The notes under the pieces are model-generated. The model was not told the origin of the DNA. It ran no database searches and worked only from the letters and a program-made list of their open reading frames with translations. From positions 1,612,001 through 1,676,000 of the forward strand of contig NZ_JALKBW010000001.1 in the NCBI RefSeq assembly GCF_023017165.1: 64,000 nucleotides of DNA, written 5' to 3'. The translations under genes were made by a program, and so were the position numbers. Within the stretch, counting starts at the first letter, position 1. Every line of letters begins with the position of its first letter. Shown here piece after piece: positions 17,768 through 35,640 of the stretch. The stretch is from Gordonia alkaliphila (GTDB lineage: Bacteria; Actinomycetota; Actinomycetes; Mycobacteriales; Mycobacteriaceae).

Positions 17768-18826
17768 ATGAGCGAGACGCTGCTGGTGTTGGCCGAGTCG
17801 GCCGTGCACGACGACGCCGCCCGGTGCGGTGCGGCGGCGGGCTACCGGATCGTGCGCGGGAATCCGGCGCAGTGCCGGAGCGACTGGCTGCGGGCGACGG
17901 CCGTGGTGGTCGACGGTGCCGCCTTGGAGGTCTTGGCGCAGGTGCGGCCACCGGCCCGGCCGGGAGTCGTGGTGGCGGCCGGTGTCGGCGCCGATCCGGC
18001 GCTGTGGCGCGCGGGGCTGTCGGTGGGCGCACAGGGCGGGTACGTGCTGCCCGACGACGAGGCGGCACTGGTGGCGGCGCTGTCCGGACTGCGTCGGCCA
18101 CGCCGCTCGGCCGCCGCCGTGGTCGCGTTGGTCGGTGGGCACGGCGGTGTCGGGGTGAGTACATTCGCCGCGGTGCTCGCGCGTACCGCGAGCCCGTCCG
18201 AGACGGGGGTCCTGCTCCTCGACGTCGCCCCCGGCGGCGCGGGCCTGGACCTCCTGTTGGGTGCCGAGGACCTGCCCGGCCTGCGCTGGTCGGACATCAC
18301 CGGTGAGACGGGAAGCATTCAGGGACAAGCGCTGTCGGCGGCGCTGCCGCGTGTCGGCGACCGCCTGCGGATCCTCACGCAGCGGCGGGACGACGGCGGT
18401 CCGCTGTCGGCGGAGACGGTGCTCGCGGTGGTCGACGCGGCGCGCTCGGACGGCGGTCTGGTGATCGCCGACCTGGGCCGCGCGAGCGATCCGGCGGCGG
18501 CCGGGGTGCTCGACTCCGCGGATCTCATCGCGGTGCTCACGGGCGCGTCGGTCCCCGGGGTGTCGGCGACGCGAAAGCTGTTGGCGCGGATCGGTATTCG
18601 GTCCGAGATGCGGTTGGTGGTCCGCCTGCCCGCGCCGGGCGGGCTGGCCGCGGAACAGGTCGCGCAGGCGGTGGGCGTACCACTGGTGGCAGCGCTGCGC
18701 AGCCGCTCGGCGCTGGCGCGCACAAGCGAGGAGGGCGGGATCCGCGCGGTGCCGCGCAGTCCGGAGGTGCGTGCCGCGACCGCCGTGCTGGTGGCGCTGG
18801 ACGCGCTGCGCGGGGGTCGACGATGA
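17768..18826 (+). CDS. ssd: Septum-site-determining-like / CpaE-like ATPase of the Tad locus
   Basis: The product has 352 residues. This is a MinD/ParA-like protein of the Ssd/CpaE group, which precedes Tad secretion genes in actinobacteria (Rv3660c position). An N-terminal receiver-like domain (about 1-115) comes before the P-loop, VGGHGGVGVSTFAAVLA. The invariant lysine of Walker A is Val here (GVGVST), which is usual for this subgroup and suggests weak or no ATP hydrolysis. The ATG at 17768 is preferred to 17720. The stop overlaps tadA (ATGA). Homologues have been linked to septum placement and to pilus positioning; which applies here is open. Confidence 0.88.
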   Translation: MSETLLVLAESAVHDDAARCGAAAGYRIVRGNPAQCRSDWLRATAVVVDGAALEVLAQVRPPARPGVVVAAGVGADPALWRAGLSVGAQGGYVLPDDEAALVAALSGLRRPRRSAAAVVALVGGHGGVGVSTFAAVLARTASPSETGVLLLDVAPGGAGLDLLLGAEDLPGLRWSDITGETGSIQGQALSAALPRVGDRLRILTQRRDDGGPLSAETVLAVVDAARSDGGLVIADLGRASDPAAAGVLDSADLIAVLTGASVPGVSATRKLLARIGIRSEMRLVVRLPAPGGLAAEQVAQAVGVPLVAALRSRSALARTSEEGGIRAVPRSPEVRAATAVLVALDALRGGRR

Positions 18827-19971
18827 CCACCGATCCCGCGCTGCGGAATGCTCAGCTGTTGGATCGGGTGCGCGAGCAGTTGGCGGCGCGCTCGGTGGAA
18901 CCGGACGCCGAGACCATCGCCGAGGCGGTGCGCAGCGAGTCCGGCGGACTGCTGTCGGACACGGATCTCCTTGCGGCACTGCGGTATCTGCAGACCGAAC
19001 TGGTCGGGGCGGGACCGCTGGAGCGGCTGCTCGCCGATCCGGCGGTGACCGACATTCTGGTGACCGGACCGGATCGGGTGTGGATCGAGCGGGGCGCAGG
19101 CCTCGAGCGGGTACCGGTGGCCTTCGAGGACGAGGCGAGTGTCCGTCGACTGGCGGTGCGCTTGGCCTCGGGAGCGGGTCGTCGTCTCGACGACGCGCAG
19201 CCGTGGGTGGACGGCCGCCTCTCGGGTATCGGCAGGCACGGCTATGCGGTGCGGCTGCACGCGATGATTCCGCCGCTCGCACTCGACGGCACCTGTATCT
19301 CGCTGCGCGTGCTGCGGTCGGCGACCATGGACTTCGCGGCCCTCGTCGCCGGCGGCGGGATCCCGGAGCAGGTGCGCGGACTGGTCACCGAGGTGATCGC
19401 GCACCGCAGGGCCTTCCTGGTGGTGGGCGGTACCGGCGCGGGTAAGAGCACCCTTCTCAATTGCCTTCTGGGGCAAGTGGATCCGGCCGAGCGTCTGGTG
19501 ATCGTCGAGGATGCGCCGGAGCTGGACCCGCAGCACCCGCACGTGGTGCGGCTGGTGGCGCGCGCCCCGAACGTGGAGGGGATCGGTGAGGTCTCGGTCC
19601 GCACCCTGGTCCGGCAGGCGCTGCGGATGCGGCCGGACCGGATCGTCGTCGGCGAGGTGCGCGGGCCCGAGGTGATCGATCTGCTCACCGCCCTCAACAC
19701 CGGCCACGAAGGCTGCGCCGGGACGCTGCACGCGAACTCGGTGGCCGAGGTGCCCGCCCGGATGGAGGCGTTGGCCGCGCTCGGCGGCATGGCGCGCACC
19801 GCCTTGCACAGCCAGCTGGCCGCGGCCCTGGATGTGGTCTTCGGCGTGGCGCGACGGCCGGACGGGCGGCGCGGGCTCATCGAAATCGGCGCGGTGGAAC
19901 CGGCCGCCGATGGCACCGTGGCGATCCGTCCGGTGTGGTCGCGTACGGACGAACCCGGCTGGCTGTCGTGA
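18823..19971 (+). CDS. tadA: TadA/CpaF secretion ATPase
   Basis: The product has 382 residues. It is the hexameric motor that drives assembly of Flp/Tad pilins. Walker A is VGGTGAGKSTLLN, the Asp box is VEDAPELDP, Walker B is DRIVVGEVRGPEVID, and the His box is HEGCAGTLHANS. The N-terminal domain (LLADPAVTDILVTGPDRVW) is also typical. ATGA and GTGA overlaps tie it to ssd and tadB. Confidence 0.95.
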   Translation: MTTDPALRNAQLLDRVREQLAARSVEPDAETIAEAVRSESGGLLSDTDLLAALRYLQTELVGAGPLERLLADPAVTDILVTGPDRVWIERGAGLERVPVAFEDEASVRRLAVRLASGAGRRLDDAQPWVDGRLSGIGRHGYAVRLHAMIPPLALDGTCISLRVLRSATMDFAALVAGGGIPEQVRGLVTEVIAHRRAFLVVGGTGAGKSTLLNCLLGQVDPAERLVIVEDAPELDPQHPHVVRLVARAPNVEGIGEVSVRTLVRQALRMRPDRIVVGEVRGPEVIDLLTALNTGHEGCAGTLHANSVAEVPARMEALAALGGMARTALHSQLAAALDVVFGVARRPDGRRGLIEIGAVEPAADGTVAIRPVWSRTDEPGWLS

Positions 19972-20774
19972 CGGCGGCCCTCGTCGTGTGCTGCGTCGCC
20001 GTCGCGCTGCTGGTGTGGCCGTCGACGGCCGCGGCCCGACGGGTCGAGCGGTTGATCGGAGCGTCGTCGGATCGTCGGCAGCGACCGCGTGCCGAGTTGC
20101 TGGCGGTGGTCGCCGTCCCGGTGGTCGGCGCGCTGGTCGGTCTCGGTGCCGGGATCGCTGCGGTCATCGTCGTGGCCGTGGGTCTCGTCCGTCGACGCCG
20201 GGCCCGTCGAGACCGTCAGCGTGCAGAGCGCGATGCCGCGCTGTGCCGCGCGCTGACGGTGATGGCGGCGGAGATGTCGGTCGGCGCGCCGATGGTGCGC
20301 GCCTGCCGGGCCGCGGCCGAGGAACTGTCGGGCCCCGGGACGCCCGCGGCCGACGCGGTGGTGGCCGGTGAACTGGTGCGGATCGCGGCGCGCGTGGAGT
20401 TGGGCGGCGGGGTGGACCCGGCGGCGGTGCCCGCCGATCCACCCGGGCTCCGGCGCGTCGGCGAGGCCTGGGCGATCTCCGTGCAGCACGGCCTGCCGAT
20501 GGTGGCGCTGCTGGAGGCGTTGCGGGCGGATCTGGTGCAGCGCAAAGACTTCACTGCGCGCACCGACGCCGGTCTGGCTGGGCCGCGCGCCACGGCGATG
20601 GTGCTGGCGGGATTGCCGCTGCTCGGGCTGGGCCTGGGGCAGCTCATGGGGGCGGCACCACTGGCGGTGCTGCTGGGTACGCCGCTGGGCTCGATCCTGC
20701 TGGTGCTCGGGGTGGGCTTGGCCGCGGCCGGGGTGCTCTGGGCCGACGCGATCGTGGCGAAGGCGAAACGATGA
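19968..20774 (+). CDS. tadB: TadB, inner-membrane platform protein
   Basis: The product has 268 residues. It is a type II secretion F-domain protein. Membrane segments lie at the N-terminus (AALVVCCVAVALLVW), near 45-65 (LLAVVAVPVVGALVGLGAGIA) and in two C-terminal segments (MVLAGLPLLGLGLGQ; LLVLGVGLAAAGVLW). Between them is the cytoplasmic F domain with ALCRALTVMAAEMSVGAPM. The GTG start overlaps the tadA stop. It should pair with TadC as the platform on which TadA works. Confidence 0.9.
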   Translation: MTAALVVCCVAVALLVWPSTAAARRVERLIGASSDRRQRPRAELLAVVAVPVVGALVGLGAGIAAVIVVAVGLVRRRRARRDRQRAERDAALCRALTVMAAEMSVGAPMVRACRAAAEELSGPGTPAADAVVAGELVRIAARVELGGGVDPAAVPADPPGLRRVGEAWAISVQHGLPMVALLEALRADLVQRKDFTARTDAGLAGPRATAMVLAGLPLLGLGLGQLMGAAPLAVLLGTPLGSILLVLGVGLAAAGVLWADAIVAKAKR

Positions 20775-21385
20775 GCGCCGCGATCGGGCTGGTGGCACTG
20801 GCCCTGCTGCTGTGGCCGGGGCCCGGTGCAGCGCTGCGACGCGTGGTTCCGTGCGCTCCGGACGGCGATCAGCGCTCGATGTTCCACGGTGAGCCGCGAT
20901 GGCTGGGGCGTCGTCGATCGGCGCCCGACCCGTTCGCGGTGGCGGCCGGCTACGACCTCTTCGCGGTGTGCCTGAAGGCCGGTCTGCCGGTCGCGACCGC
21001 GGCGACGGTGGCTGCCGAGCACAGCCCCGAACCGCTCGGCGGAGCGCTGGCGCATGCGGCGGAACTGCTGGCGTTGGGCGCCGATCCGGGGCAGGCCTGG
21101 GCGCGGGACGAGCTCACAGGCGGGGCCGATCCGGGCGAGCACTTCCGCGAACTCGCGACCCTGGCGCGACGTGCCTCGCGGGCGGGGTCGTCGTTGGCCG
21201 ACGGGGTGGCAGCACTCGCCGAGGCGACTCGCGAGCAGGCGCAGACGCAGGCATTGGCGCGGGCCGAGCGGGCGGGCGTCACCATCAGCGGACCGCTGGG
21301 TCTGTGCTTCCTCCCGGCGTTCGTCTGCCTGGGCATCGTGCCGGTGGTGATCGGCTTGGCGAGCGGCATGCTCGGGCAGTGGTGA
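20771..21385 (+). CDS. tadC: TadC, inner-membrane platform protein
   Basis: The product has 204 residues. An N-terminal membrane segment (IGLVALALLLWPG), a cytoplasmic F domain (DLFAVCLKAGLPVATAATV) and a C-terminal segment (GLCFLPAFVCLGIVPVVIG) fit TadC. It is shorter than proteobacterial TadC, as usual in mycolata. An ATGA overlap couples it to tadB. A 93-nt gap follows before the pilin. Confidence 0.88.
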   Translation: MSAAIGLVALALLLWPGPGAALRRVVPCAPDGDQRSMFHGEPRWLGRRRSAPDPFAVAAGYDLFAVCLKAGLPVATAATVAAEHSPEPLGGALAHAAELLALGADPGQAWARDELTGGADPGEHFRELATLARRASRAGSSLADGVAALAEATREQAQTQALARAERAGVTISGPLGLCFLPAFVCLGIVPVVIGLASGMLGQW

Positions 21386-21478
21386 CCGCCTCGCGCGGCG
21401 TGTCATGGAACCCGCGAGGGGGTCGCGAGCGTCTAAAGGTCGAAACGAGTATCAACCATTTCATCGAGGGGGAATCTC

Positions 21479-21700
21479 ATGAAGAATCAGCACTTCGGCG
21501 GCCGATTGTTGGATCGGGCGGGGGCCGAGTTCGGGCGGCTGATCAGCGACGATGCCGGAATGTCGACGGCCGAATATGCCATAGGCACGGTCGCGGCCGC
21601 CGCGTTCGGCGCGATTCTGTACACCGTCATCAGCGGCGACAACGTGGTGAGTGCGTTGACCGGCATCATCAGCCGGGCACTGTCCACGTCGATTGGATGA
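21479..21700 (+). CDS. Flp-type pilin subunit (DUF4244)
   Basis: The product has 73 residues. Prepilin-type features are clear: an N-terminal leader ending DDAG, then MSTAEYAIGTVAAAAFGAILYTVI with Glu at mature position 5 and a following hydrophobic helix. GAGGGGGAATCTC before the ATG is a strong ribosome-binding site, which suits an abundant structural protein. It overlaps tadE by ATGA. A decayed second copy of this gene lies between the insertion sequences at 29555-34352. Confidence 0.88.
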   Translation: MKNQHFGGRLLDRAGAEFGRLISDDAGMSTAEYAIGTVAAAAFGAILYTVISGDNVVSALTGIISRALSTSIG

Positions 21701-22074
21701 GGACGTCGTGGTGTCGACGGCTTGCCGCGGACGAGACGGGGATGGTGACGGTCGAGGCCGCCTATGCGCTCGCGGCACTCGCGGTGTTCGTCGTGCTCGG
21801 CGTGGCGGCGATCGGCACCGTCGCAGCGCAACTGCGGTGCACCGATGCGGCTCGTGAGGTGGCTCGACTCTCCGCGGCCGGCGACAGTGAGGCCCAGGCG
21901 GTGGGTGCGCGGGTTGCGCCGAAGGGGTCGCGGATCGAGGTGCACCGTCAGGGTGAGCAGGTGGTGGCGATCGTCAGCGCGAAGGTTCCGCTGTTGCCGT
22001 TGTTCGACGTCTCGGCGCACAGCGTGGCGGCGATGGAACCGGACGGGGTCGAGGCGGCGACTGTGGGCGAATGA
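21697..22074 (+). CDS. TadE-like pseudopilin
   Basis: The product has 125 residues. The pattern ADETGMVTVEAAYALAALAVFVVLG is the TadE signature (charged leader, G-M-V-T-V-E-A, membrane helix), with the conserved Glu in the helix. The ectodomain (residues 50-125) is small. It probably forms a minor pilin of the Tad fibre. It starts inside the stop of the main pilin gene. Confidence 0.85.
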   Translation: MRTSWCRRLAADETGMVTVEAAYALAALAVFVVLGVAAIGTVAAQLRCTDAAREVARLSAAGDSEAQAVGARVAPKGSRIEVHRQGEQVVAIVSAKVPLLPLFDVSAHSVAAMEPDGVEAATVGE

Positions 22075-22414
22075 CGACGGCTCGGTGACGGTGGCGGCGG
22101 CCCTGACGATGGCCGGGCTGGCGGCGTTGTTGATCGCGATCGTCTACCTGGGTGCGGGTGTGCTGGCCCGCCACCGGGCGCAGAACGCTGCCGACCTGGG
22201 GGCGCTGGCCGCGGCGTCGGCGCACGTGCGTGGGGACGAGCGGCCGTGTGCGCGGGCGCGGGAGATCGCCGACGCGCAGGAGGGGCCGCCGCGGGTAGTG
22301 CGGTGCGAGGTGGACGGCCAGGACCTGCTGATCGAGGTGGTGGTGCCGGTCCGCCTGGGGCAGTGGGGCCTGCGGTCGGCCACCGCCCGCGCCCGTGCGG
22401 GGCCGACGGAGTGA
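22061..22414 (+). CDS. TadE/helicase-secretion-neighbourhood-like minor pilin (Rv3654c-like); start uncertain
   Basis: The frame encodes NDDGSVTVAAALTMAGLAALLIAIVYLGAG, then RHRAQNAADLGALAAASA, the pattern of the small protein that ends mycobacterial Tad loci. The start is unclear. The ATG overlapping the tadE stop (22071) is out of frame and meets a stop after five codons. In-frame options are CTG 22061, which keeps the conserved DDG, or GTG 22085, which loses it. I give the CTG. Ribosome slippage from tadE is another option. Confidence 0.65.
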   Translation: MWANDDGSVTVAAALTMAGLAALLIAIVYLGAGVLARHRAQNAADLGALAAASAHVRGDERPCARAREIADAQEGPPRVVRCEVDGQDLLIEVVVPVRLGQWGLRSATARARAGPTE

Positions 22415-22765: not shown

Positions 22766-23090
22766 CGTTCCACGATGATCTGCAGGTGTTCCGCGAGGCC
22801 GAGGTTCGAGGGAGTCGCCGCCTCCGCTCGATGGTTCCGGTGCGCAGGCCGTCTGCTTCAGCGAGGTAGCCGACTGTGCAGTCCGGGCCAGCCGCGTCGT
22901 CAGCCGATGTCGCCGGTCCATGACTCGGGCAGCAGGTTGAGCACGTCGTAGAGCGAAAAATTCCGGACCGGAATTTGATTTCTTCCCTCTACCTGCTTGT
23001 TTGAGGATCTACCGCCCCGATGGTTGACATCGCGCCCCTACCGTAGGCGCGGGGGCTTACCCGTAGAACACTAGGAAGTTCGGAGTGATG
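22766..23090. other. Non-coding stretch before the porin gene
   Basis: These 325 bp hold no convincing gene. The one strong signal is the palindrome at 22958-22976. A TTGACA at 23024-23029 lacks a convincing -10 at normal spacing. Confidence 0.5.
22958..22976. promoter_or_regulatory. Perfect 19-bp palindrome, putative operator
   Basis: AAATTCCGG-A-CCGGAATTT is perfect and AT-richer than its surroundings. It lies about 115 bp upstream of the porin gene and about 190 bp upstream of the MFS remnant on the other strand. A TetR-like operator that once served the transporter is possible. Confidence 0.45.
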
Positions 23091-23768
23091 ATGAGACGAC
23101 CATTCACCCTTCTGCTCGCCCTGCTCGGCGCGCTGTCGATGACCGCGCTGTTGGCCGGTGGGCCAGCCGGGGCGAAGACCCACCAGACTCGCGAGGGGTT
23201 GGCGATCGCGTTGTCTGCGGTGCAGCAGTCGGCGAGTGCGGTTTCGCCGCTGGACTCCTCGCCCCTGTCCGGGCAGGCGCTGTTGTCCTCGAACGTGCAT
23301 GCGGCGATCGGGAACATCGACGGCAAGAACGTGCGCGCCACACTCGAGGTCGGCTATAAGATCGGCTACCCGGTATCGGTCGCCCCCAACGGAGTGAAAG
23401 TCACCGCGCACACCCCCGAGCTCAAGCTCACCGGCGGGGTCAACGCCAAAGTCGCCCCGGAAGTCACCATCTCGGGCTCAGGAGGCGGCGCCAAGTTCGG
23501 CGACCTCGGAGCCCAAGCGGGCGTTGAAGCGAACGTGATTCCATCCGCAGACCTGGAGTTCGAGATCCAGGCCGGGAAGATCGCCACCGTCACCCTGGCT
23601 GAGGTCGCGTTGACACAGCCTGTGGCCGACATCGTCCTGTCCGGTGTGGAGCTCAATGTCACCAACGCGCTCGGCCCGATTAGCGCGCGTCCGTTCGCCA
23701 AGATCTCGGTCACCACCGACACTGGCGTGTACGTGTACTACGACCACGGCTCCGCCGTCCGTCTGTAG
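23091..23768 (+). CDS. MspA-family outer-membrane porin
   Basis: The product has 225 residues. A signal peptide (LLLALLGALSMTALLAG) is followed by beta-rich sequence with the MspA pattern: VRATLEVGYKIGYPV, VKVTAHTPELKLTGG, VTLAEVALTQPVADIVLSGVEL, and a final strand near VYVYYDHGSAVRL. MspA porins are octameric channels in the mycomembrane, which supports a mycolic-acid host. Three start codons in a row occur at 23085-23093. The ATG at 23091 has GGAG at the best spacing. It is followed after 15 nt by the cysteine hydrolase gene. Confidence 0.88.
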   Translation: MRRPFTLLLALLGALSMTALLAGGPAGAKTHQTREGLAIALSAVQQSASAVSPLDSSPLSGQALLSSNVHAAIGNIDGKNVRATLEVGYKIGYPVSVAPNGVKVTAHTPELKLTGGVNAKVAPEVTISGSGGGAKFGDLGAQAGVEANVIPSADLEFEIQAGKIATVTLAEVALTQPVADIVLSGVELNVTNALGPISARPFAKISVTTDTGVYVYYDHGSAVRL

Positions 23769-23783
23769 GCGAGAACTTCAACG

Positions 23784-24944
23784 ATGGCATACAAGAAGAT
23801 CGATAACGGCCCACAGCCACGGCAAAGCGCTTTCGGTGGGGTGGTCGCAAGCGTCACCGCCCTCGCCGTATCGCTGGCGATTGCGTCGTCGCTGGTTCCC
23901 TCCAACGCATCCGCCGAAACGCCAGCGGAGCGTTGCAAGAGGGAGACTGCCGCATACAACTCGGCATGGGCGACATCTTGGGTAACGGCTCACCCCGGAA
24001 CGGAACCGGATGACGCACCGCCTCCGCCGGTCCCCTACCGGTGCGGCGGTGGAAGGGACGAGCCGCCGACACTCCGTCCGGACAAATCTACGACCCCGAG
24101 TTCAACGGCAACGCCGTCCCCTTCTACCTCCGCTCAACCGACAGACGGCGGCAGCGGGCCTGCGGTCCGTCCGTCGACAGAGCGTAACGAGCCGGCCAGC
24201 GGTGTCGACAGAGATCAACCCTCTATCGGCGGCACAGGGAGAGCGCAGTACTCGGATATTCCGGAGGACGAACTACGCAAGTTGATCAACATATCGGCCA
24301 GAAACTTCCATATCGAGATTGGGAGGTTGCGTAGCGAACTTCGGGCGTTCTCCCGTCAGATGTCGCTCCCCTACTCTGAGGTCCTCTCCAGTGCCGAGCG
24401 AAATGCCTTCGATGCCGTTCCGGTAGGTAACCCCAGCGCCGATGCGACGTGCGGAAAGCCGGCGAACAGAAAGGTCGGTAGGGCGCGGAGGGGAGGTGAC
24501 TTCTTCTACTCGGATTCCTGTACGGAGGGAGTCAACCATGGCCACAATGGGCTATTCGTCAGCACGATGGCTACCGTGGAAGCGAGTGACAAAAAGGGAG
24601 TTCACCGCGTTGCGAACGCGGCTGAATCGATGCGCGTAAACCCACAAAAATACTATGTAAAGGCCGAGAACGCAACGAATAATCAGAAGGATTCGGCTGT
24701 AGATTACGCTGAATCTAGAGTAGGCAAGGGGTATAATAAGTGGGGATTTGCGAACAACAGGAAAGGAGGGCCCGAGGTGGGTCACTTCAATTGTTCCCAG
24801 TTGGTATGGGCAGCCTACTATGAGACCTCGGGAATCGACCTCGATAAGGACTCATACGGATCATTCGTCAATCGAAACCTGTCTCCGAACCCCGGGGTTT
24901 ATCCAAAGGACCTCACCGGGTCTCCGCTAGTTGTGGCGTACTAA
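23784..24944 (+). CDS. Secreted permuted papain-fold (YiiX/YebB-like) cysteine hydrolase
   Basis: The product has 386 residues. A signal segment (about 18-44, VASVTALAVSLAIASS...NASA) is followed by a region with two cysteines (51, 87), a Pro/Ser/Thr linker (about 92-150), a helical stretch and a C-terminal catalytic domain. The domain reads GDFFYSDS, then NHGHNGLF (His 252/254), then HFNCSQLVWAAYYETSGIDLD (Cys 337) and a final PKDLTGSPLV. His before Cys is the circularly permuted NlpC/P60 order. Members cleave amide or ester bonds in peptidoglycan, lipids or proteins. Codons in the last third are AT-richer than in neighbouring genes, a sign of transfer. Its stop overlaps the next start (TAATG). 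Confidence 0.7.
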   Translation: MAYKKIDNGPQPRQSAFGGVVASVTALAVSLAIASSLVPSNASAETPAERCKRETAAYNSAWATSWVTAHPGTEPDDAPPPPVPYRCGGGRDEPPTLRPDKSTTPSSTATPSPSTSAQPTDGGSGPAVRPSTERNEPASGVDRDQPSIGGTGRAQYSDIPEDELRKLINISARNFHIEIGRLRSELRAFSRQMSLPYSEVLSSAERNAFDAVPVGNPSADATCGKPANRKVGRARRGGDFFYSDSCTEGVNHGHNGLFVSTMATVEASDKKGVHRVANAAESMRVNPQKYYVKAENATNNQKDSAVDYAESRVGKGYNKWGFANNRKGGPEVGHFNCSQLVWAAYYETSGIDLDKDSYGSFVNRNLSPNPGVYPKDLTGSPLVVAY

Positions 24945-26221
24945 TGCGATTTCGCCCGTGCGTGGTACGACGGTCGCCCAGCCGCGTGGTTGTCGGTATC
25001 GCCGTGTTGTTTCTGATGGCCATGACAGTGTCGTGCTCTTCCGAACCACTGTCGGAGAAATCCGCTCTGGGGCCAGAAGTCGACAGGATCCCAGAGCAGG
25101 CGTACGCCGCAGTGATGGTTGCGCCTCCGGCGTTCGAATTCGCGTACGACACCGTCCAGGACAATTCATGGGTGGTATTCGTCGATCGGGACATGACGCC
25201 GCTCGGTTACATGCATCAGAAAGGGATGTTTCGAAGTCAGATCGCACGGTATCGTGATGGGATCATATTTGCTGACCATAAGAACTATTTCGTGACCTCC
25301 AAAGCCGGTACCCACGTCGAGCCCCACGACGCAGGAGGGACGTCGTTGCATGCGTCCACACCGTACGATATTCAATCGGAAGACGCATTCTTATGGCTCG
25401 ACGACGGCGTAGTCGATGGACGGTACCGAAGTACCGCGATCGCGGTATCGCCCGACAGTTCGGATTCGATTCGAAAGATCGACGGCCTGGTCGTTTCCTT
25501 CGGCAGATGTGCAGGAGTCCCCTATGCCGTCCTCTCGCGTAGTTTCGGCAGAAGCGGCCCGGATAAGGTCCACGAGCTTGCTGAGATCGACATGGCAAGG
25601 ATCCGGCCCGATATCCCGAAGTCCCAGAAGATGTTCGACTTCGACGGCTCCGGTGGCGGGATCCCATACTCGTGCGATGGCTCAGGACAGGTCTCGACCT
25701 ACATGTCGGACGGAAACGATGTCTCCGATGGCCAGCCAGTCAAGTCCGGGTTCTGGACGGCGAGCGTCGACGACGGACACTCCGCCTGGTCTCCCGTCCC
25801 TCGCGAAAAGGCTGCGGGTTCTGCGGCACACGGCGGAATATTCACGCAGTACACTGCGCCCTTTGGGGCGAACATCTCATGGCCAAGCGGGAACGGCATG
25901 CGATACGTCGATACCGAGGGTCAAGTATCGGAGATCAGGTTCGGTAAGGACTTCTCCAGCTATTTGTTCACCGTGGCTCCGGACATTCGGGATCGTGTGA
26001 TCAACGCGGTAGCGGTCGGTTCCGGATCGGACGGTATCGCCTATCTGACACGCGTCGACTCAGACGGCTACATACTTCTGGGTGACGGGGAGTTCGTCTT
26101 CACGAACTTCGATTCTGGTGAAGAGGATCGCCGTATACCGACCCCGGAGTGGTTAGCGAACCTTGTAGCGTCGGATCCCTTCATGGTCAGCGATATTGCG
26201 CTACTGAGCGATCTCACGTAA
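24944..26221 (+). CDS. Putative secreted or lipid-anchored protein, unknown function
   Basis: The product has 425 residues. A hydrophobic leader (VVVGIAVLFLMAMTVSCSS) with Cys near residue 31 suggests a lipoprotein, although the -3 residue is Thr, not Leu. The rest is rich in Asp, Gly, Ser and aromatic residues with repeated short beta-like segments (VVFVDRDMTPLGYM, EDAFLWLDDGVVDG, GDGEFVFTNFDSG), perhaps a propeller. I do not recognise the family. The one-base overlap with the cysteine hydrolase gene implies that the two products are made together; a cognate inhibitor or a binding partner is possible, but nothing in the sequence proves it. Confidence 0.6.
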   Translation: MRFRPCVVRRSPSRVVVGIAVLFLMAMTVSCSSEPLSEKSALGPEVDRIPEQAYAAVMVAPPAFEFAYDTVQDNSWVVFVDRDMTPLGYMHQKGMFRSQIARYRDGIIFADHKNYFVTSKAGTHVEPHDAGGTSLHASTPYDIQSEDAFLWLDDGVVDGRYRSTAIAVSPDSSDSIRKIDGLVVSFGRCAGVPYAVLSRSFGRSGPDKVHELAEIDMARIRPDIPKSQKMFDFDGSGGGIPYSCDGSGQVSTYMSDGNDVSDGQPVKSGFWTASVDDGHSAWSPVPREKAAGSAAHGGIFTQYTAPFGANISWPSGNGMRYVDTEGQVSEIRFGKDFSSYLFTVAPDIRDRVINAVAVGSGSDGIAYLTRVDSDGYILLGDGEFVFTNFDSGEEDRRIPTPEWLANLVASDPFMVSDIALLSDLT

Positions 26222-26625
26222 CGGGTTCCCCGTGTCATGCGGAGGGGTGTCGATACCGAACCGGCCGCTCGCGATTCGACCCGAGTCGTGCCACTTTAGT
26301 GCCCCGTTGAGGCGTGGAGTTTCGCGATGATGTCGGCGGCGGTTCCGTCGAGTGGTGTTTCGGCCATGACGTGTTGTCCGCGTACCCGGATCATGACGTC
26401 GCGGACTGGGCGCAGTGTGGTGATGATGCGTTTGATGGAGTAGCCGGTGGTGTCGGTGAGGTGGCGGGTGACGGCGAGTGCGGCGAACACGATGGTGAGG
26501 TGCGCTTCGATGGAGTCACGCTGGTGGTGGAACATCGGCCGGGCCCGTAGGTCGCTTTTGGCCATGCGGAATGATTCCTCGACTCGGAAGAGGTCGTGGT
26601 AGGCCGCGACGACTTGTTCGCCGGA

Positions 26626-28260
26626 CCCGAGTCGTGCCACTTTAGTGCCCCGTTGAGGCGTGGAGTTTCGCGATGATGTCGGCGGCGGTTCCGTCGAGTG
26701 GTGTTTCGGCCATGACGTGTTGTCCGCGTACCCGGATCATGACGTCGCGGACTGGGCGCAGTGTGGTGATGATGCGTTTGATGGAGTAGCCGGTGGTGTC
26801 GGTGAGGTGGCGGGTGACGGCGAGTGCGGCGAACACGATGGTGAGGTGCGCTTCGATGGAGTCACGCTGGTGGTGGAACATCGGCCGGGCCCGTAGGTCG
26901 CTTTTGGCCATGCGGAATGATTCCTCGACTCGGAAGAGGTCGTGGTAGGCCGCGACGACTTGTTCGCCGGAGAGCGTGTCTTTGGAGAGGCTGGTGACAT
27001 AGCCTTTGAGGCCGAGGTAGGAGCGGGCCTTGTCGACCGCGTCCCAGTTCACGCCGGGCTGGTTCCCGAGGGCCACGAATCGGTCCTTCTTCGGCCGGCG
27101 CCGTCCGTCGGCGATGTCCTGGGCTCGTTCGATCTGCTTGTTCAAGGTGATGTTGTCGCGGCGCTCGCGTTTGCGTGAGTAGTGCCAGACCACCCGCCGT
27201 GTGCGAGCGTGCGCGCCGGTCCCCATGGTCCGCTTGGTCTCGATGGTTTGGCCGTCGCGAAGGTAGGTGCCGCGGCGTTCGTAGTGTTCGGCCAGGTCAC
27301 GTGGCGCCGAGCCGGTGCGGGACCCGACGATGAAATCGAAACCTGCCTCCTGCAGGGCGTTGAGATTAGCGGCCGACAGCATTCCGGCGTCAGCGACGAC
27401 GACGACGTCAGCGCCGTGGTGGCGTTCGCGGAACCGGGTGAGCACGGGCAGCAGGGTGCTGGTCTCTGCCCGGTTGCCGGCGAAGGAGTGCACTTCGAGG
27501 GGAAACCCGGTCGGGTCGACGAGCATCCCGACGAGGATCTGGGGGTCGACCCGCCGTTCCTTGCTCATCCCGACTTTCCGGAAGGTGTCTTCGTTCTCGG
27601 CTTCGAAGTACAGGGTCGTCACGTCGTACATCACGACAGACAGGGCCCCGCCCGCGGTGACATGCCCCAACGCCGCCGAAGCGAGCTGTGTCCGCCAGTC
27701 CTCGCTGACACTGCGTGTGAGGGTGCGCCAGATCGTGCGCAGCGATGGTGAAGGCACTCCGAGTTCGGCCAGCACTCGGATCGTGTCGGCCTTGCTCGTC
27801 GGTTCGACGATCCTGGCCAGCACCAACTGTTTGAACGCGTCAGTGCCGATCTTGTCGAACCCGAGATCGCGGTAGCCCTGTTCGAGGACTTCCCACAACA
27901 CGCGCGATTGCGACCCGGCCACCTCGGGGACCGCCGAGACCTTCGCCGGCGCCAACGCCGACAAGTCGAAAGCGAGCTGACCTGCATGGAGCTTCGTATC
28001 GGCGACCTCGAGCAGCACCGCGAGTTCTTCGGGTGAATGCGCCGATCCGATGTGTTCGACGATCCGGCGCACACCACGTTCCTTCGACACGATCTGTACC
28101 GCTGTCGCACCCGACGCGGTCCGCACCTTCCGGACGAACAACCCCACACGATCGATCGTAGACACCCAGTTTAGTGCCCTAAACGGGCACTACCAGCGGC
28201 CAAAACCCCAGGTCGCAACGACCCGCCGAGCCAAGTCACCAAAATGTGGCACGAGTCAGG
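26626..28260 (-). mobile_element. IS B: intact IS1634-family element, type 1 (1635 bp)
   Basis: It has the same ends as IS A, and CCGGA (26621-26625 and 28261-28265) is the 5-bp target duplication. It inserted into the transposase gene of IS A in the same orientation. Confidence 0.93.
26642..28165 (-). CDS. IS1634-family DDE transposase (IS B)
   Basis: The product has 507 residues, full length. DDE catalytic features are visible: VVMYDVTTLYFE (first Asp), VVVVADAGMLS (second Asp), and the YREK-like FRVEESFRMAKSDLRARP with the catalytic Glu. The N-terminal VRKVRTASGATAVQIV and EHIGSAHS blocks recur in the other two related element types in this window. The stop codon lies within 20 bp of the element end. 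This is the only uninterrupted transposase of this family here, so IS B is the likely active copy. Confidence 0.93.
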   Translation of the reverse strand: MSTIDRVGLFVRKVRTASGATAVQIVSKERGVRRIVEHIGSAHSPEELAVLLEVADTKLHAGQLAFDLSALAPAKVSAVPEVAGSQSRVLWEVLEQGYRDLGFDKIGTDAFKQLVLARIVEPTSKADTIRVLAELGVPSPSLRTIWRTLTRSVSEDWRTQLASAALGHVTAGGALSVVMYDVTTLYFEAENEDTFRKVGMSKERRVDPQILVGMLVDPTGFPLEVHSFAGNRAETSTLLPVLTRFRERHHGADVVVVADAGMLSAANLNALQEAGFDFIVGSRTGSAPRDLAEHYERRGTYLRDGQTIETKRTMGTGAHARTRRVVWHYSRKRERRDNITLNKQIERAQDIADGRRRPKKDRFVALGNQPGVNWDAVDKARSYLGLKGYVTSLSKDTLSGEQVVAAYHDLFRVEESFRMAKSDLRARPMFHHQRDSIEAHLTIVFAALAVTRHLTDTTGYSIKRIITTLRPVRDVMIRVRGQHVMAETPLDGTAADIIAKLHASTGH

Positions 28261-30327
28261 CCGGAGAGCGTGTCTTTGGAGAGGCTGGTGACATAGCCTT
28301 TGAGGCCGAGGTAGGAGCGGGCCTTGTCGACCGCGTCCCAGTTCACGCCGGGCTGGTTCCCGAGGGCCACGAATCGGTCCTTCTTCGGCCGGCGCCGTCC
28401 GTCGGCGATGTCCTGGGCTCGTTCGATCTGCTTGTTCAAGGTGATGTTGTCGCGGCGCTCGCGTTTGCGTGAGTAGTGCCAGACCACCCGCCGTGTGCGA
28501 GCGTGCGCGCCGGTCCCCATGGTCCGCTTGGTCTCGATGGTTTGGCCGTCGCGAAGGTAGGTGCCGCGGCGTTCGTAGTGTTCGGCCAGGTCACGTGGCG
28601 CCGAGCCGGTGCGGGACCCGACGATGAAATCGAAACCTGCCTCCTGCAGGGCGTTGAGATTAGCGGCCGACAGCATTCCGGCGTCAGCGACGACGACGAC
28701 GTCAGCGCCGTGGTGGCGTTCGCGGAACCGGGTGAGCACGGGCAGCAGGGTGCTGGTCTCTGCCCGGTTGCCGGCGAAGGAGTGCACTTCGAGGGGAAAC
28801 CCGGTCGGGTCGACGAGTATCCCGACGAGGATCTGGGGGTCGACCCGCCGTTCCTTGCTCATCCCGACTTTCCGGAAGGTGTCTTCGTTCTCGGCTTCGA
28901 AGTACAGGGTCGTCACGTCGTACATCACGACAGACAGGGCCCCGCCCGCGGTGACATGCCCCAACGCCGCCGAAGCGAGCTGTGTCCGCCAGTCCTCGCT
29001 GACACTGCGTGTGAGGGTGCGCCAGATCGTGCGCAGCGATGGTGAAGGCACTCCGAGTTCGGCCAGCACTCGGATCGTGTCGGCCTTGCTCGTCGGTTCG
29101 ACGATCCTGGCCAGCACCAACTGTTTGAACGCGTCAGTGCCGATCTTGTCGAACCCGAGATCGCGGTAGCCCTGTTCGAGGACTTCCCACAACACGCGCG
29201 ATTGCGACCCGGCCACCTCGGGGACCGCCGAGACCTTCGCCGGCGCCAACGCCGACAAGTCGAAAGCGAGCTGACCTGCATGGAGCTTCGTATCGGCGAC
29301 CTCGAGCAGCACCGCGAGTTCTTCGGGTGAATGCGCCGATCCGATGTGTTCGACGATCCGGCGCACACCACGTTCCTTCGACACGATCTGTACCGCTGTC
29401 GCACCCGACGCGGTCCGCACCTTCCGGACGAACAACCCCACACGATCGATCGTAGACACCCAGTTTAGTGCCCTAAACGGGCACTACCAGCGGCCAAAAC
29501 CCCAGGTCGCAACGACCCGCCGAGCCAAGTCACCAAAATGTGGCACGAGTCAGGTTCGAGTGCGCGATCGGGACGGTCGCGGCGTTCGGGACCATTCTGT
29601 AGACCGTCATCAGGGCTCTTCGAAGTTGAGCGGGCACCTCAGCAGTGAATCTGGATGCCTGCCCGCTGTTTGCGGGTGCAGTGGAATCGTATCCGGCGTC
29701 GTGAGTTCTCGAGGTTCCGGAAGCCACATGCGGCGCGTTTGACCTGTTTGACGAGCCGGTTGTAGCCCTCTGTGCGGGCGTTGGTGATCGTGGTGCCGAT
29801 GAATGCCGCCACCGCTGGCCACCACTTCTCGATCGTGGTTGCGAGCTTGACAACTTCTGGCAGATTCACCTGAGCGCATAGGTCCAAGAACTTGTAGAAC
29901 TGGTAGGCCAGATGGTGGTCGTCGGGTCGGCTACGGGCCAGCGCAAGCAGGCCACGTAGTTCTTCCTTCACGATGTAGGCGGCCAGTATTTCGTTGCCAG
30001 GATCTTTGGCGCGCAACGCATTCCACATTTTGGCGTAACTGTGCTCGGAGAGGCGTTCACGGGCGGTGAGTAGGCGGCGCCGGTTCGCCCATTCTGGATC
30101 GACTGCCCGCCCACGGCGCCCACGCTGATCCCAAGTGACCCGCCGCCGAACCGCGGTGACCATGTCGTTGGCGAGCTTGATTACATGGAAGTGGTCGACC
30201 ACCAGCTGCGCATCGGGCAGCGCCTGGGCTGCGGCGGCGGCGTACGCGGCACACGGATCGATCGCAACGTGGGTGATCGAGGACCGAAACTCAGGACTCT
30301 GCTTGGCGAGCCATTGGGCCACCGCCA

Positions 30328-30464
30328 TCGAGGTGCGGCCGGTGACCTGCCCGAGTAGGCCCTGATCGCCCGCGAGGTCGACGAATCCAGTGTCCCACGG
30401 ATCTATCCGATACCAGCGGCCATCAGGGTCGCGTTCCCAGCGTGGCCGGCCCCGACGAGTCTCA
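30328..30464. repeat. 137-bp target duplication of IS C, left copy
   Basis: It is identical to 33545-33681, in direct orientation, flanking IS C exactly. It is part of the IS H transposase gene. Confidence 0.9.
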
Positions 30465-31258
30465 CCTGACTTTTATCACCGACTCGGACATATTGGACTT
30501 TGCTTGTTGCGACCTGCGGGTTTAGAGCTGTTTCGGGCTGGATTTGTGCACTAAGGATCGCCGATAGGGTGGGTGGATGACCTACGTTCGGACCGTGAAG
30601 ACCGCTTCGGGAGCGCGAGCAGTCCAGATCGTTCACGGTTCGCGGAAGGGGTCGCGGTCGATCGAGCACATCGGGTCAGCGCACACCGACGACGAGTACG
30701 CCGCGCTCAAGGCCGTGGCTGCGCGGCGTCTTGCTGCAGGTCAGGGCGAGTTGGACCTAGGCATTGCGGATGTCGTGCCGGCTTCAGCGGAGCCGTTACC
30801 GATCCAGTCCTCACGGATGGGGCACCTGTGGGATGGACTCGAGTACCTCTACCGCGAACTCGGCTTCGACGACGCGACCGGCGGTGATCCGGTTTTCCGC
30901 GACCTGGTGTTGGCGCGGATCATTGAGCCCACCAGCAAACTCGACTCGATCCGTGTCCTCGAGGAAGTTGGTGTGCCGGCAATGTCGTATCCGACGATGA
31001 ACCGTCGCCTGCCGATCTACGCCACCGACACCTGGCGACAGAATCTCGCTGCCGCGTGTGCCAAGCATGCAGGCCTGGGGCCTACGACGCTCGTGTTGTA
31101 CGACGTCACGACGCTGTACTTCGAGACGGACAAGGCCGATGGATTCCGCGAACCCGGATTCTCGAAAGAACGTCGTCTCGAGCCGCAGATCACCGTGGGG
31201 ATGCTCACCGACGCCACTGGTTTCCCGCTGTTGATCGAGGCGTTCGAGGGCAATAAGA

Positions 31259-32695
31259 GGCTCTCCTGACACATGTGTGGGTGGGGTGAGCGCGTCTGAG
31301 TAGGCGCACGCCGTTGTCCTGCATAGGTTCTGAACTGTCGAGGAAACAGAAACCTGTGGTCAGGAGAACGGCGTGCGTGATGTCAGCTTATGGCGGAATC
31401 TGCTCGGAATCGAGAAGACCGTGCTGGAGCGGGTCGTATTCGACGAGGACGCGCAGGTGCTGGTGGCCCATGTGCGGCCCGTCGCGCGCCAACGTGGCCG
31501 GTGCGGGAGGTGCCGGCGGCGCAGTCCCCAATATGATGGCGGGCCGGGGCGGCGGCGCTGGCGGGCGCTGGACCTGGGCACGATTCGTGCCGAGCTCGAG
31601 GCCGATACGCCTCGGTGCGGTGCCGCGAGCATGGGGTGGTGGTCGCCGCGGTGCCGTGGGCCCGCCATGACGCGGGCCACACCTATGCCTTCGACGATCA
31701 GGTCGCGTGGTTGGCGACCAGGCCTCGAAGTCCACAGTGACTGAGTTCATGCGCATCGCCTGGCGCACCGTCGGATCGATCATCGACCGCGTCTGGAGAA
31801 GGACATCGACGCCCAGCACGACCGGTTCGATGGGCTGCGGCGTATCGGGATCGACGAGATCAGCTACAAGAAGGGCCACAAGTACCTCATGGTCGTCGTC
31901 GATCACGACCGGCGTCGGCTGGTGTGGGCCGCTCCGGGGCGTACCAGCGCCACCGTGCATGAGTTCTTCGACCTGCTCGGTGAGCAGCGGTGCGCGCTGA
32001 TCACCCACGTCAGCGCCGATGGGGCCGACTTCATCGACACCGTCGTGACTGATCGGTGTCCGGCCGCAGTGCGGGGTGGCCGATCCGTTCCACATCGTCG
32101 CCTGGGCCACTGACGCCCTCGATGAGGTCCGCCGCCAGGGGTGGAACGATGCCCGTAAACAGGCCCGGGCCGAGCCGAAACGGGGCCGTGGACGCCCACG
32201 GTCCGACGCCCCACCTAGGCCGGCCAGCGACCGTGCCAAGGCACTCAAAGGCGCCCGGTACTCGCTGTGGAAGAACCCCGAGAACCTCACCGCCAATCAG
32301 CAGGCCAAGCTCGCCTGGATCGCCAGGACCGACCCGAGGCTGCATCGCGCCTACCTGCTCAAGGAAGGTCTGCGGGTGGTATTTGCGCTGCCCCATGACG
32401 CGGCCGCTGAAGCCCTGGACCGCTGGATCAGTTGGGCTCGTCGCTGCCGGATCCCCGCGTTCGTGAAACTCCAAAAACGCATCGCCAAACACCGCGACCG
32501 GATCCTCGCCGCGATCGAGCATCGACTATCCAACGGCCTGATCGAGTCGACCAACACCAAGATCCGACTGATCACCCGGATGGCCTACGGCTTCAAGTCC
32601 GCCGAAGCCCTCATCGCCATGGCCATGCTCAGTCTCGGCGGTCACCGGCCCGTGCTTCCAGGCCGCAAATGACCCACAGATCAGTCAGGAGAGCC
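31259..32695 (+). mobile_element. IS G: second ISL3-family element (1437 bp)
   Basis: Ends GGCTCTCCTGAC are inverted at both termini. CAATAAGA (31251-31258, 32696-32703) is an 8-bp target duplication. It differs from IS H in ends and in transposase sequence. Confidence 0.92.
31373..32672 (+). pseudogene. ISL3-family transposase of IS G, several frameshifts
   Basis: Pieces in different frames are MRDVSLWRNLLGIEKTVLE with the CGRCRRRSPQYD zinc motif, then RIAWRTVGSIIDRVW, then DEISYKKGHKYLMVVVDHD, and finally ADPFHIVAWATDALDEVRRQ to LIESTNTKIRLITRMAYG. At least three indels separate them. ISL3 catalytic landmarks (DEISYK, ADGADFI, IESTNTKI) are present but not in one frame. Confidence 0.85.
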
Positions 32696-33544
32696 CAATA
32701 AGAGCGAGAAACTCACGATCGTTCCGACCGTCCTGAAGTTCATGGCAGCCCATGACCTCAGCGACGTCACCGTCGTCGCCGACGCTGGCATGATCTCCGC
32801 GGAGAACATGAAAGCGATTGAACGAGAGGATCTTTCGTTCATCCTCGGTGAGCGGATGCCGTCGATCCCGTACCAGATCGCCAAGTGGGTCGCCGACCAT
32901 CCCGATCAGACGCCAGCGGACGGGCTGACCCTGGCCCAGCACCAGCGCGCACACGCGAAGACGAGCTTTCGGCGCAACCGGGTCACCTATTACCGGTATT
33001 CGGCCGATCGGGCTCGGCGGAGCCTGCGCGGGATCAACGAACAGATAGGAAAAGCCGAGAAGGCCGTGGAAGGCAAGATTCCGGTCAAGCGGAACCGGTT
33101 CGTCACTCTCAAGGGCGCGGACAAGAGCGTCAATCGCGAGTTGGAGACGAAGGCGCGGACGCTGGCCGGGTGGGAAGGCCTACATCACCAACATCGATGG
33201 GCCGACTCCGGAGTTCGTGATCGGCGCCTACCATCAGCTGTGGCGGATCGAGAAGAGTTTCCGCATGTCAAAGGGCGATTTGGCGGCGCGGCCGATCTAC
33301 CACCGGACCGAGGACTCGATCCGTGCGCATTTGGCGATCGTGATGGCAGCACTCGCGGTGACACGGGTGGTCGAGGAACGGACAGGCTGGTCGATCAAGA
33401 AGTTCGTGACCACCACCCGCCGCTACCGGACCATCGAGATCCGCGTCGGCGACCAGATCATCACCGCCGCCGACCCACTACCGGACGACCTCGCCGACGT
33501 GCTCAGTGCGATCCGAGGTGCGCACTAAATTGATAAAAGTCAGG

Positions 33545-33681
33545 TCGAGGTGCGGCCGGTGACCTGCCCGAGTAGGCCCTGATCGCCCGCGAGGTCGACG
33601 AATCCAGTGTCCCACGGATCTATCCGATACCAGCGGCCATCAGGGTCGCGTTCCCAGCGTGGCCGGCCCCGACGAGTCTCA
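33545..33681. repeat. 137-bp target duplication of IS C, right copy
   Basis: It is identical to 30328-30464 and begins at the base after the IS C end. Confidence 0.9.
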
Positions 33682-34698
33682 TCGATCCCGAGGACCCGTA
33701 CTGGTTGCGGCTGCTGCAGAACGCGGTCGGCGACCTCGCAGAACGCGGCATGGGCGGTCGGCCAGGACACCCCATGCGCGGCGGCAACCTCGATGACCGA
33801 ACGTGCCGCATCTCCGATCGCCAGGCCCATCTGCTCGCGCAGCCGTCCGGTGGTGCGTCGCCTGGCCGGCACCTGATTGATGGCCTCGGTGAACGTGCTC
33901 CGCTCGCATGCCTGGTTTCGGCAACGCCAGCGAATCTTGTTCCAGCGCAACAGGATTGGGTCAGGGCCGTACCCGATATCGCGTGGCGTAGTGATTGTCC
34001 TTTCCTTCACCGAGGACGATCGATCCCCGCAGTCAGGGCAACACGCCGCGCCCCCATCTGCGGTGACCACATCGACCACCCTGGTGCGATCTGGCCGTCG
34101 CTCGACCCCAACGACCTGCACACCTTCCAGACCCAGCAACAACGACGTAGGCTCGGACACGGCCCCTGCCCCTCTTTCGATTCTTGAATGCTTCGCAACA
34201 TCCAGAATCACGAAGGTCAGGGGCCTTTCACGTCAACGACACGCGACCGCCCTGACCAGGGACTGCCCGTTCAAGATCGAAGAGCCGTCATCAGTGGCGA
34301 CAATGTGGTGAGTGCTTGACCGGCATCGTCGGGCAGGCGCTGTCGAGGTCGATGGGGTGAGGGCAGTGGGGTTCGCGGTCGGCCGTCGGCCGCGCTAGTC
34401 CGGATAAACTGATCCGCGCGGTCACGCACTCAGGCCTGAGTTGGACCTCTTTAGTGCCTGGATTTGAGGGCGTCGAGGATCGCTGTGGCGTCGGCGTCGA
34501 GTGGCGTGCGGGCGGTGATTTGGTGGCCGTTGACGTCAACGACGACGGTGTGAATGCGGCGTAGGTGTTGGATGATCTTCTTGATCGAGTAGCCGGTCGC
34601 GTTCTGAAGGTCGCGGGCGATCGCGAGGGCGGCGAATACGATGGTCAGGTGGGCTTCGATGGAGTCGCGGCGGCGGTGGAAGATTGGTCGGGCGGCTA

Positions 34699-35637
34699 GG
34701 GCGTGTCTGACAAATCGGCGGGGTGGGATCTGAGAAGCTGGGTTCATGTCGCGGTTTCAGGTGCTCTCGGATGCTCAGTGGTCGTTGATCGAGGGCATGC
34801 TGCCGAAGCGGACGGGCCGTAAGGGGCGTCCGTTCTCCGATGCCCGGACGATGGTCGAAGCGATCGTCTACCGGTATCGGTGCGGTATCGCCTGGCGTGA
34901 TCTGCCGGAGGTGTTCGGGCCGTGGCAGACGGTGTGGACGTGGCATCACCGGATGGCGAAGGCGGGCACCTGGGATCAGGTCCACGCGAAGCTCACTGCC
35001 GCCGCTGATGCTGCGGGACTGGTGGATTGGTCGCTGTCGGTGGACTCGACCATCGCTCGCGCCCATCAGCACGCCACGAACACCACGCGCCTCACAGGGG
35101 GCTGGATCGAATTACACGAATCCGGGGATCGAGCCGCCTGACCACGCCGTCGGCCGCTCCCGCGGCGGGCTCTCGACGAAGATTCACCAGCTCGTCGACG
35201 GCAACGGACTGCCACTGGTCACCTTGCTCACCGCTGGCCAGGCCGGTGACTCGCCGATGTTCCTGCCGCTGATGAGCCAGCTGCGGGTCGGCCGCGAACG
35301 AGGCCGGCCACGCACCCGTCCGGACGCGGTCCGCGGCGACAAGGCTTACTCGTCGCGGGCGATCCGGGCCCACCTGCGAGCGCGCGGAATCAAGGCCGTC
35401 ATCCCCGAGCCCGACGATCAGAAGGGCCACCGCAAGCGGCGCGGTTCCCGCGGCGGCAGACCTGTCGCGCTCGATGTCGCCGACTACAAGAACCGCAGCG
35501 TCATCGAACGCCGCTACTGCCACACCAAGCAGTGGCGCGGACTGGCCACCCGTTACGACAAGCACGCCGTCAACTACCGCGCAGCAGTCGTCCTCAACGC
35601 CGTGATCGCCTGGTCGAAAGAATTGTCAGACACGCCC
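34699..35637 (+). mobile_element. IS F: IS5-family element, IS427-like group (939 bp)
   Basis: Ends GGGCGTGTCTGACAA are inverted at both termini. Flanking TA (34697-34698, 35638-35639) is a 2-bp duplication. Two overlapping frames encode the transposase, as in the IS427 group. Confidence 0.88.
34746..35141 (+). CDS. IS5-family transposase, first frame (orfA, IS F)
   Basis: The product has 131 residues. The N-terminal LSDAQWSLIEGMLPKRTGRKG and the GIAWRDLPEVFGPWQTVW block are classical IS5. The first catalytic Asp is in SLSVDSTIARAHQHA. The last residues diverge after TNTTRLTGG, where the second frame takes over; a frameshift near the CACAGGGGGC run (35092-35101) would fuse both. Confidence 0.87.
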   Translation: MSRFQVLSDAQWSLIEGMLPKRTGRKGRPFSDARTMVEAIVYRYRCGIAWRDLPEVFGPWQTVWTWHHRMAKAGTWDQVHAKLTAAADAAGLVDWSLSVDSTIARAHQHATNTTRLTGGWIELHESGDRAA

Positions 35638-35640
35638 TAG
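35060..35640 (+). CDS. IS5-family transposase, second frame (orfB, IS F)
   Basis: The frame is read from upstream of the overlap to DTP and a stop just past the element end. It has GRSRGGLSTKIHQLVDGNG, the second catalytic Asp in RGDKAYSSRAIR and the Glu in NRSVIERRYCHTKQW. No good start lies at the join, which supports production as an A-B fusion by frameshifting. The start coordinate is the approximate beginning of the overlap region. Confidence 0.75.

Follow-up and report, generated by a model that had tools for sequence, protein, structure and literature searches.

An MspA-family porin gene linked to a predicted polymorphic toxin-immunity family of mycolic-acid bacteria

Why would a bacterium with a mycolic-acid outer membrane carry a porin gene directly ahead of genes for a secreted hydrolase and an exported partner protein? 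The question is raised by three adjacent plus-strand genes of Gordonia alkaliphila, which lie in a stretch of 64,000 nucleotides (positions 1,612,001-1,676,000 of NZ_JALKBW010000001.1, assembly GCF_023017165.1; genome size 3.85 Mb), here called the window. They encode an MspA-family porin, a secreted cysteine hydrolase and a predicted lipoprotein, with gaps of 15 nt and -1 nt between them. An earlier note on this DNA had proposed that the hydrolase and its partner are an effector with its inhibitor, a cell-wall remodelling pair or a lipid-modifying pair, and had named them as a candidate for an undescribed system. Comparison with related genomes reveals a leader that stays constant, C-termini that are exchanged, downstream genes that match in part, linkage to the porin and a split in the porin tree; the first three fit the option of an effector with its inhibitor. 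We estimate a probability of roughly 0.7 that the block belongs to a family of polymorphic toxins with immunity proteins, found in mycolic-acid bacteria and served by a dedicated porin of the MspA family. No support was found for a lipid-modifying pair, a reading at which no test was aimed.

The porin gene (23088-23768 of the window) encodes a protein that scores 97.4 bits against Pfam MspA (PF09203; gathering cut-off 22.9), its sole Pfam match, and that matches the MspA structure 1UUN by sequence (E 3.4e-5). The hydrolase gene (23784-24944) begins 15 nt behind the porin gene, and its TAA stop (24942-24944) overlaps the ATG of the partner gene at 24944 in a TAATG junction, both as the earlier note had described. 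Its open reading frame of 386 residues is predicted, from the comparison of leaders and backs given below, to encode in its entirety a secreted polymorphic toxin. Residues 1-42 (23784-23909) probably form a Sec-type signal peptide, judged by inspection from a hydrophobic stretch ahead of a conserved AETP motif.

The part of the hydrolase shared with other proteins is its front. Searching 101 related genomes with the hydrolase gave matches in 20 (two of them weak, E ~1e-3), mostly over residues ~15-150 only and within open reading frames of very different length, up to five per genome. The shared element is a leader module formed by the first 45 residues of the mature protein (residues 43-87, 23910-24044), located after the signal peptide and before a Pro/Ser/Thr-rich stretch, with the consensus AETPAERCxRETxAYNxAW...PPPVPYxC. 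Twelve positions, including Cys51 and Cys87, are invariant in the 31 sequences aligned of 36 extracted. AlphaFold2, supplied with an alignment of two sequences, models a helix at residues 47-69, with confidence scores (pLDDT) of 59-75 in the leader block. The Pro/Ser/Thr-rich linker (residues 88-155, 24045-24248) scores below 50 and is probably disordered, a judgement that rests on its composition because the catalytic domain likewise scores below 50.

The leader is distributed patchily. It is present in 28 of 401 family-level genomes, representing 7 of 31 genera, and in 3 of 296 genomes of a phylum-level sample, two of which are Gordonia while the third is a weak match over 23 positions. A search of named genomes with the full-length hydrolase returned no match, and the leader alignment was needed to recover 27 loci there, comprising 16 from Gordonia, 10 from Nocardia and one weak match in a Dinoroseobacter bin. 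This last match failed a check at E 0.01. Leaders also occur on Rhodococcus plasmids, and a search of phage records with the leader region gave no match, leaving a phage origin unsupported. In total, 59 leader loci were assembled, of which 57 remained after removal of the exact duplicates L039 and L072; rows L050 and L051 (E ~1e-3), row L100 (no match) and repeats of contigs already counted were omitted before counting. On two porin-bearing plasmid records the RefSeq labels read 'MspA family porin - hypothetical protein - hypothetical or DUF protein', and the family is therefore easily missed. On plasmid pGKT3 of Gordonia sp. KTR9 (L189) the leader region is unannotated, and the annotated toxin start falls inside the open reading frame.

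Behind the leader, the C-terminal domains (backs) are exchanged. The backs of 54 of the 57 loci (three are too short) fall into 29 BLAST groups, 12 of which hold more than one locus. Among 22 pairs of loci whose porins are more than 0.9 similar, similarity is 0.33-0.88 in the leader region and 0.11 or less over the last 120 residues in every pair; 19 of these pairs are in different BLAST groups, and three are still distantly related. Pfam matches above cut-off were found in the backs of four of 20 toxins (Amidase_6, Peptidase_M10, the calpain-type Peptidase_C2 and WHH/Colicin-DNase) and in none of 10 further relatives in a second scan, and one Nocardia back has a sub-threshold match to the pore-former family ETX_MTX2. 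Neither the window toxin nor the 30 relatives gave a Pfam match to an LXG or WXG100 domain, and searches of solved structures with three toxin relatives and one Rhodococcus toxin returned nothing useful.

Base composition follows the same division. The earlier note had drawn attention to AT-rich codons at the end of the hydrolase gene, and the effect is real: G+C content at third codon positions (GC3) is 0.85 in the window porin and 0.67 in the front of the hydrolase, drops to 0.57 over the final 120 codons of that gene and is 0.68 in the partner. Across the family, median GC3 declines from 0.80 in the porin through 0.70 in the leader to 0.63 in the back, with 0.64 in the following gene, and the back lies below the front in 34 of the 44 loci (of 57) that entered the comparison. 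Such a drop toward the back is as expected if the C-terminal domains are cassettes exchanged horizontally.

The porin gene is a regular companion of the leader. In 48 of the 57 loci an MspA gene precedes the leader gene on the same strand, and the distance from the porin stop to the mature leader is 108-217 nt in 43 loci, close to touching genes, and 364-475 nt in five. The nine loci without an adjacent porin are L036, L049, L056, L057, L148, L150, L151, L152 and L157, and in three of them, L049, L148 and L157, the leader is atypical or the open reading frame very short. Because such leader genes exist, the porin is not required in cis. The G. alkaliphila genome carries four leader genes in all, of which L056 and L057 have no porin next to them. 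At 2.16 Mb there is a second full block of porin, toxin and partner with the same enzyme type (L055:5034-7438), whose hydrolase and partner are 75% and 76% identical to those of the window. The 95-residue gene behind the porin-less L056 appears to be cut short. On plasmid pCP209 of Rhodococcus qingshengii (L188), a leader gene carries a back that resembles the one in the pGKT3 toxin, and the record annotates no porin alongside.

Inspection of the genes that follow other MspA genes revealed a second class of predicted toxin. Here MspA is followed, usually after a small membrane protein of 103-136 residues, by a secreted protein of 748-988 residues (in the 13 loci, of 17, with an intact-looking open reading frame) that has variable C-termini and a following gene. 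In Gordonia its leader reads ADALCDQMRAQYGxxWPCISVPT. This second leader is found in 19 of the 101 relatives, all Gordonia and one of them weak, and in one copy in this genome. That copy (L197, at 1.18 Mb) consists of MspA, the small membrane protein, a toxin of ~770 residues and a 250-residue follower; by eye, the toxin C-terminus looks like the one in L203, where PD-(D/E)XK matches below threshold.

A maximum-likelihood tree of 81 porins contains a branch with 100/100 support that divides 57 porins from 24. On the larger side, which includes the window porin, 54 are linked to a leader, 43 to the first type and 11 to the second, with second-class labels assigned by hand, and three are linked to neither; on the smaller side none of the 24 was seen ahead of a leader gene. 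The tree omits the short pieces L044, L069 and L099 as well as L093 and L147. One of the three unlinked porins lies before what by eye is a transposase-like open reading frame, one is in this genome and one is on pGKT3. At 1.84 Mb of the G. alkaliphila genome (L196) a leader-side porin is not followed by a leader gene and may be what is left of a decayed block. We also aligned leader-linked and other porins to compare the width and charge of the constriction, where the alignment is too uncertain for any conclusion.

These data bear on the possibility that the porin is an unrelated accessory gene, serving for example nutrient uptake, that hitch-hikes with mobile toxin cassettes. In its favour, the block adjoins insertion sequences and other copies are on plasmids, and the nine leaders without a porin would be natural under loose association. 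Against this stand the fixed gene order of the other 48 loci, the separate side of the tree occupied by the linked porins, and the occurrence of porins from that same side with the second toxin class. A genus labelled g3 provides a further argument. Of the seven g3 genomes tested, five have neither MspA nor a leader match, and the other two have two MspA genes each, every one ahead of a leader gene (L153-L156), some in frames of more than 900 residues. This exclusive co-occurrence counts against hitch-hiking, although the four genes form two nearly identical pairs (97.5 and 97.7% identity between the porins) and thus represent two loci in two close relatives rather than four. That correction makes hitch-hiking slightly more likely, and a translocating porin slightly less so, yet we still regard hitch-hiking as quite unlikely.

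Porin and leader also vary together (Mantel r 0.78, n 35 loci), while the correlation of porin with back is small and non-zero (r 0.16, p 0.004). This covariation can also be read as the mark of a way in, whereby target cells would be recognized through their own MspA-type porins, to which the leader would bind, and the co-encoded porin would act as decoy, receptor or regulator. The leader and linker are laid out like the translocation domains of colicins, and the leader genes without a porin are compatible with such a scheme. However, the leader-linked porins are set apart in the tree from those that typical targets would display, and the five g3 genomes without MspA imply that targets in this genus would often have no receptor. 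Receptors, moreover, are usually not co-encoded with the weapon that uses them. Entry through the porin therefore seems unlikely to us, and we take it as most likely that the role of the porin is to carry the toxin across, or display it on, the mycolic-acid outer membrane of the producer.

If the backs are toxins, the genes behind them should often be matched to them, and to some extent they are. In six of the 12 multi-locus toxin groups the downstream genes group together wholly or mostly, and in one further group only one pair does so. The window enzyme group and its partner group hold exactly the same four of the 57 loci. The immunity-protein family SUKH was found above cut-off in two of 10 downstream proteins, one behind the WHH nuclease and one behind a further toxin, and another downstream protein carries a PA domain. 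By a simple hydrophobicity rule, applied with no genome-wide baseline, 17 of 44 downstream proteins scored are lipoprotein-like, 16 have another signal or transmembrane segment and 11 have neither; nine genes were skipped for gap or length.

The window partner (24944-26221, 425 residues) gave no Pfam or NCBIfam match. The earlier note had called it an exported protein; it does have a hydrophobic signal, and the same simple rule recognizes a lipobox-like TVSC motif at Cys31, so it is more precisely a probable lipoprotein. Its structure model is weak (pLDDT 52.7), and the best structural matches are beta-propellers at Z ~10. Many unrelated propellers tie at this level, and only a probable propeller fold is claimed for this reason. 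Most likely the partner is an envelope immunity lipoprotein.

The enzyme itself was described in the earlier note as a permuted NlpC/P60-type hydrolase. His252, His254 and Cys337 are indeed at the positions given there, in the domain encoded at 24381-24941. They belong to HGHNG and NCSQ motifs that are invariant in all five aligned relatives and occur in permuted order; by analogy with family C92, we take the His and Cys of these motifs to be the catalytic residues. The family assignment is less firm, with Peptidase_C92 (PF05708) at 23.9 bits, just under its gathering cut-off of 27, and NLPC_P60 a weak match. The AlphaFold2 model of the hydrolase (two-sequence alignment, mean pLDDT 36.6) forms only the leader helix and one helical segment, with no catalytic fold, and a search of solved structures with the hydrolase found nothing relevant.

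Enzyme and partner travel together more often than not. The note had held that finding the two genes apart in most genomes would tell against a functional pair; a scan of the 401 family-level genomes for the enzyme domain, at E 1e-6 or better, gave 18 rows. The partner family is directly downstream in 12 of these; of the other six, five are from g3 and one is from G111. At E 1e-4 or better, the partner was located at 22 sites (23 rows, one site being split over two). The enzyme accompanies it at 12 sites and is missing at 10, so that a partner without its enzyme is common; the surroundings of three of these 10 were inspected. In the smaller set of 101 related genomes the partner was found in four. 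A single-sequence search of plasmids with the partner gave no match; a distant member came to light as the neighbour of an enzyme match. There, on a Rhodococcus plasmid, LGFP repeats take the place of the leader ahead of the enzyme domain (33% identity, E 1e-27), and the next gene is a partner-family member (20% identity, single-comparison E 6e-4). Because the pair recurs in this setting, enzyme and partner appear to form a cassette that can be joined to different front ends, the behaviour to be expected if they are a toxin and its immunity protein. The note had taken the two genes as the unit; the unit is instead one of three genes, in which porin and leader are the constant part and the hydrolase domain with its partner is one exchangeable cassette among many. 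C92-like domains stand behind LGFP-type N-termini in L186, L214, L218 and L219 (by Pfam LGFP in L186, by eye in the others), and L219, from a g3 genome, has no partner match.

The same observations are where the remodelling pair of the earlier note has to be weighed. On that account a self-directed peptidoglycan hydrolase and a regulatory lipoprotein would be expressed beside a porin during envelope growth. The C92-like domain with its Cys/His pair would suit the task, as would the occurrence of the domain behind cell-wall repeats of LGFP type, in g3 with no partner match. It is harder to see why the same leader, usually with a porin, should elsewhere bear a nuclease, calpain-like and matrixin-like proteases and many unrelated domains, or why a growth function should be distributed so patchily and partly on plasmids. 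We keep this explanation as a rival and judge it improbable.

Several results weigh against a toxin-immunity family served by its own porin. Toxicity, immunity, docking of the leader on the porin, the direction of transport and peptidoglycan as the target are all inferred. No Pfam match above cut-off was found in 26 of the 30 relatives scanned, the C92 score of the window enzyme is itself below cut-off, and its catalytic domain has no modelled fold. Downstream genes are ungrouped in five of the 12 multi-locus toxin groups, partly through contig ends or transposases, and the 10 partners without enzyme and five g3 enzymes without partner would fit a housekeeping cell-wall hydrolase. An adjacent porin is missing from nine of the 57 leader loci, two of them among the four of this genome, and of two Rhodococcus plasmids outside the 57, one has a porin directly upstream and the other none annotated. 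The tree program warned of long branches coming together at the principal split, the g3 evidence reduces to two loci, and the correlation between porin and leader could arise from simple linkage. Finally, passages on MspA in PMC3377714 and PMC10233385 describe an octameric pore with a constriction of ~1.2 nm, a width (PMC10233385) that is too narrow for a folded toxin.

A route for an unfolded toxin can nonetheless be outlined. Sec would export the hydrolase, and the mature leader, a short helix probably stapled by its two cysteines, would dock on the cognate porin from the periplasmic side. The Pro/Ser/Thr linker might then lead the unfolded toxin through the pore or hold it at the surface, where the C-terminal domain would reach a neighbouring cell; the window copy would cut peptidoglycan there, a target that fits with the envelope-anchored partner. 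On the producer's own envelope, the lipoprotein would block the enzyme. Extended to the family, the proposal is that the dedicated MspA clade constitutes the outer-membrane translocators of an undescribed secretion route, an equivalent of two-partner secretion for the mycomembrane, by which Sec-exported toxins of two classes would be threaded or displayed, one class short and the other long and usually accompanied by an extra small membrane protein. We advance this wider proposal tentatively, at odds somewhat short of even.

The closest parallel in layout is the type Vb system of contact-dependent inhibition, CdiB-CdiA, in which the gene for an outer-membrane pore lies beside that for a toxin exported by Sec and docking through its N-terminal part, followed by immunity. 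The pore here, however, belongs by Pfam to the MspA family and is not a TpsB/Omp85 barrel with POTRA domains, the toxins are of ~240-1000 residues and not giant filaments, and the outer membrane is one of mycolic acids. Colicins that use OmpF resemble the present toxins in their flexible N-terminal part and in the involvement of a porin, but here the porin is co-encoded by the producer and the toxin has a Sec-like signal. Toxins of the LXG/ESX (type VII) kind are likewise polymorphic toxins outside the classical Gram-negatives; the window protein and the 30 relatives scanned gave no LXG or WXG match, and the export signal looks Sec-like. The enzyme shares permuted His/Cys motifs with the YiiX/YaeF family C92 (PF05708) and differs in its sub-cut-off score.

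Polymorphic toxin systems as a whole, according to sections of PMC3482391, combine a constant N-terminal trafficking part with a variable C-terminal toxin and a downstream immunity gene. The conserved N-terminal module is present here, its role in trafficking being presumed, and so are the WHH nuclease and SUKH. That survey names two-partner secretion and contact-dependent inhibition, and the names MspA, Gordonia, Nocardia and Rhodococcus are absent from the first 300,000 of its 357,715 characters. Sections of other papers report LXG toxins in Firmicutes (PMC5555719), MspA as a plasmid gene label (PMC8092301) and an MspA-family protein as an antigen (PMC9782307). Titles and the starts of abstracts in one open-access library, subscription papers and preprints being outside its scope, yielded no paper that links MspA to toxin secretion. 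Polymorphic toxins are well known, and their association with an MspA porin is apparently undescribed, in keeping with the suggestion that this block is a candidate for an undescribed system.

The block is bordered on both sides by other features. A Tad/Flp pilus locus at 18823-22414 (T2SSE ATPase, two T2SSF proteins, DUF4244 and a Tad TadE/G-like protein) ends just upstream of the porin; there is no sign that it belongs to the porin-toxin system. Directly downstream, at 26296-38727, insertion sequences are densely packed, with near-identical transposase open reading frames at 26642-28165 and 28236-29459 and an ISL3 piece at 29639-30328.

How proteins pass the mycolic-acid outer membrane has been an open question for a long time, and MspA has been known mainly as a nutrient porin and as a sequencing nanopore. 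If the porin described here is a translocator, the secretion route would be new. The toxin-tied MspA clade represents a concrete candidate for a protein translocator of this membrane, and the family offers a source of antibacterial domains, together with inhibitors, active against mycolic-acid bacteria.

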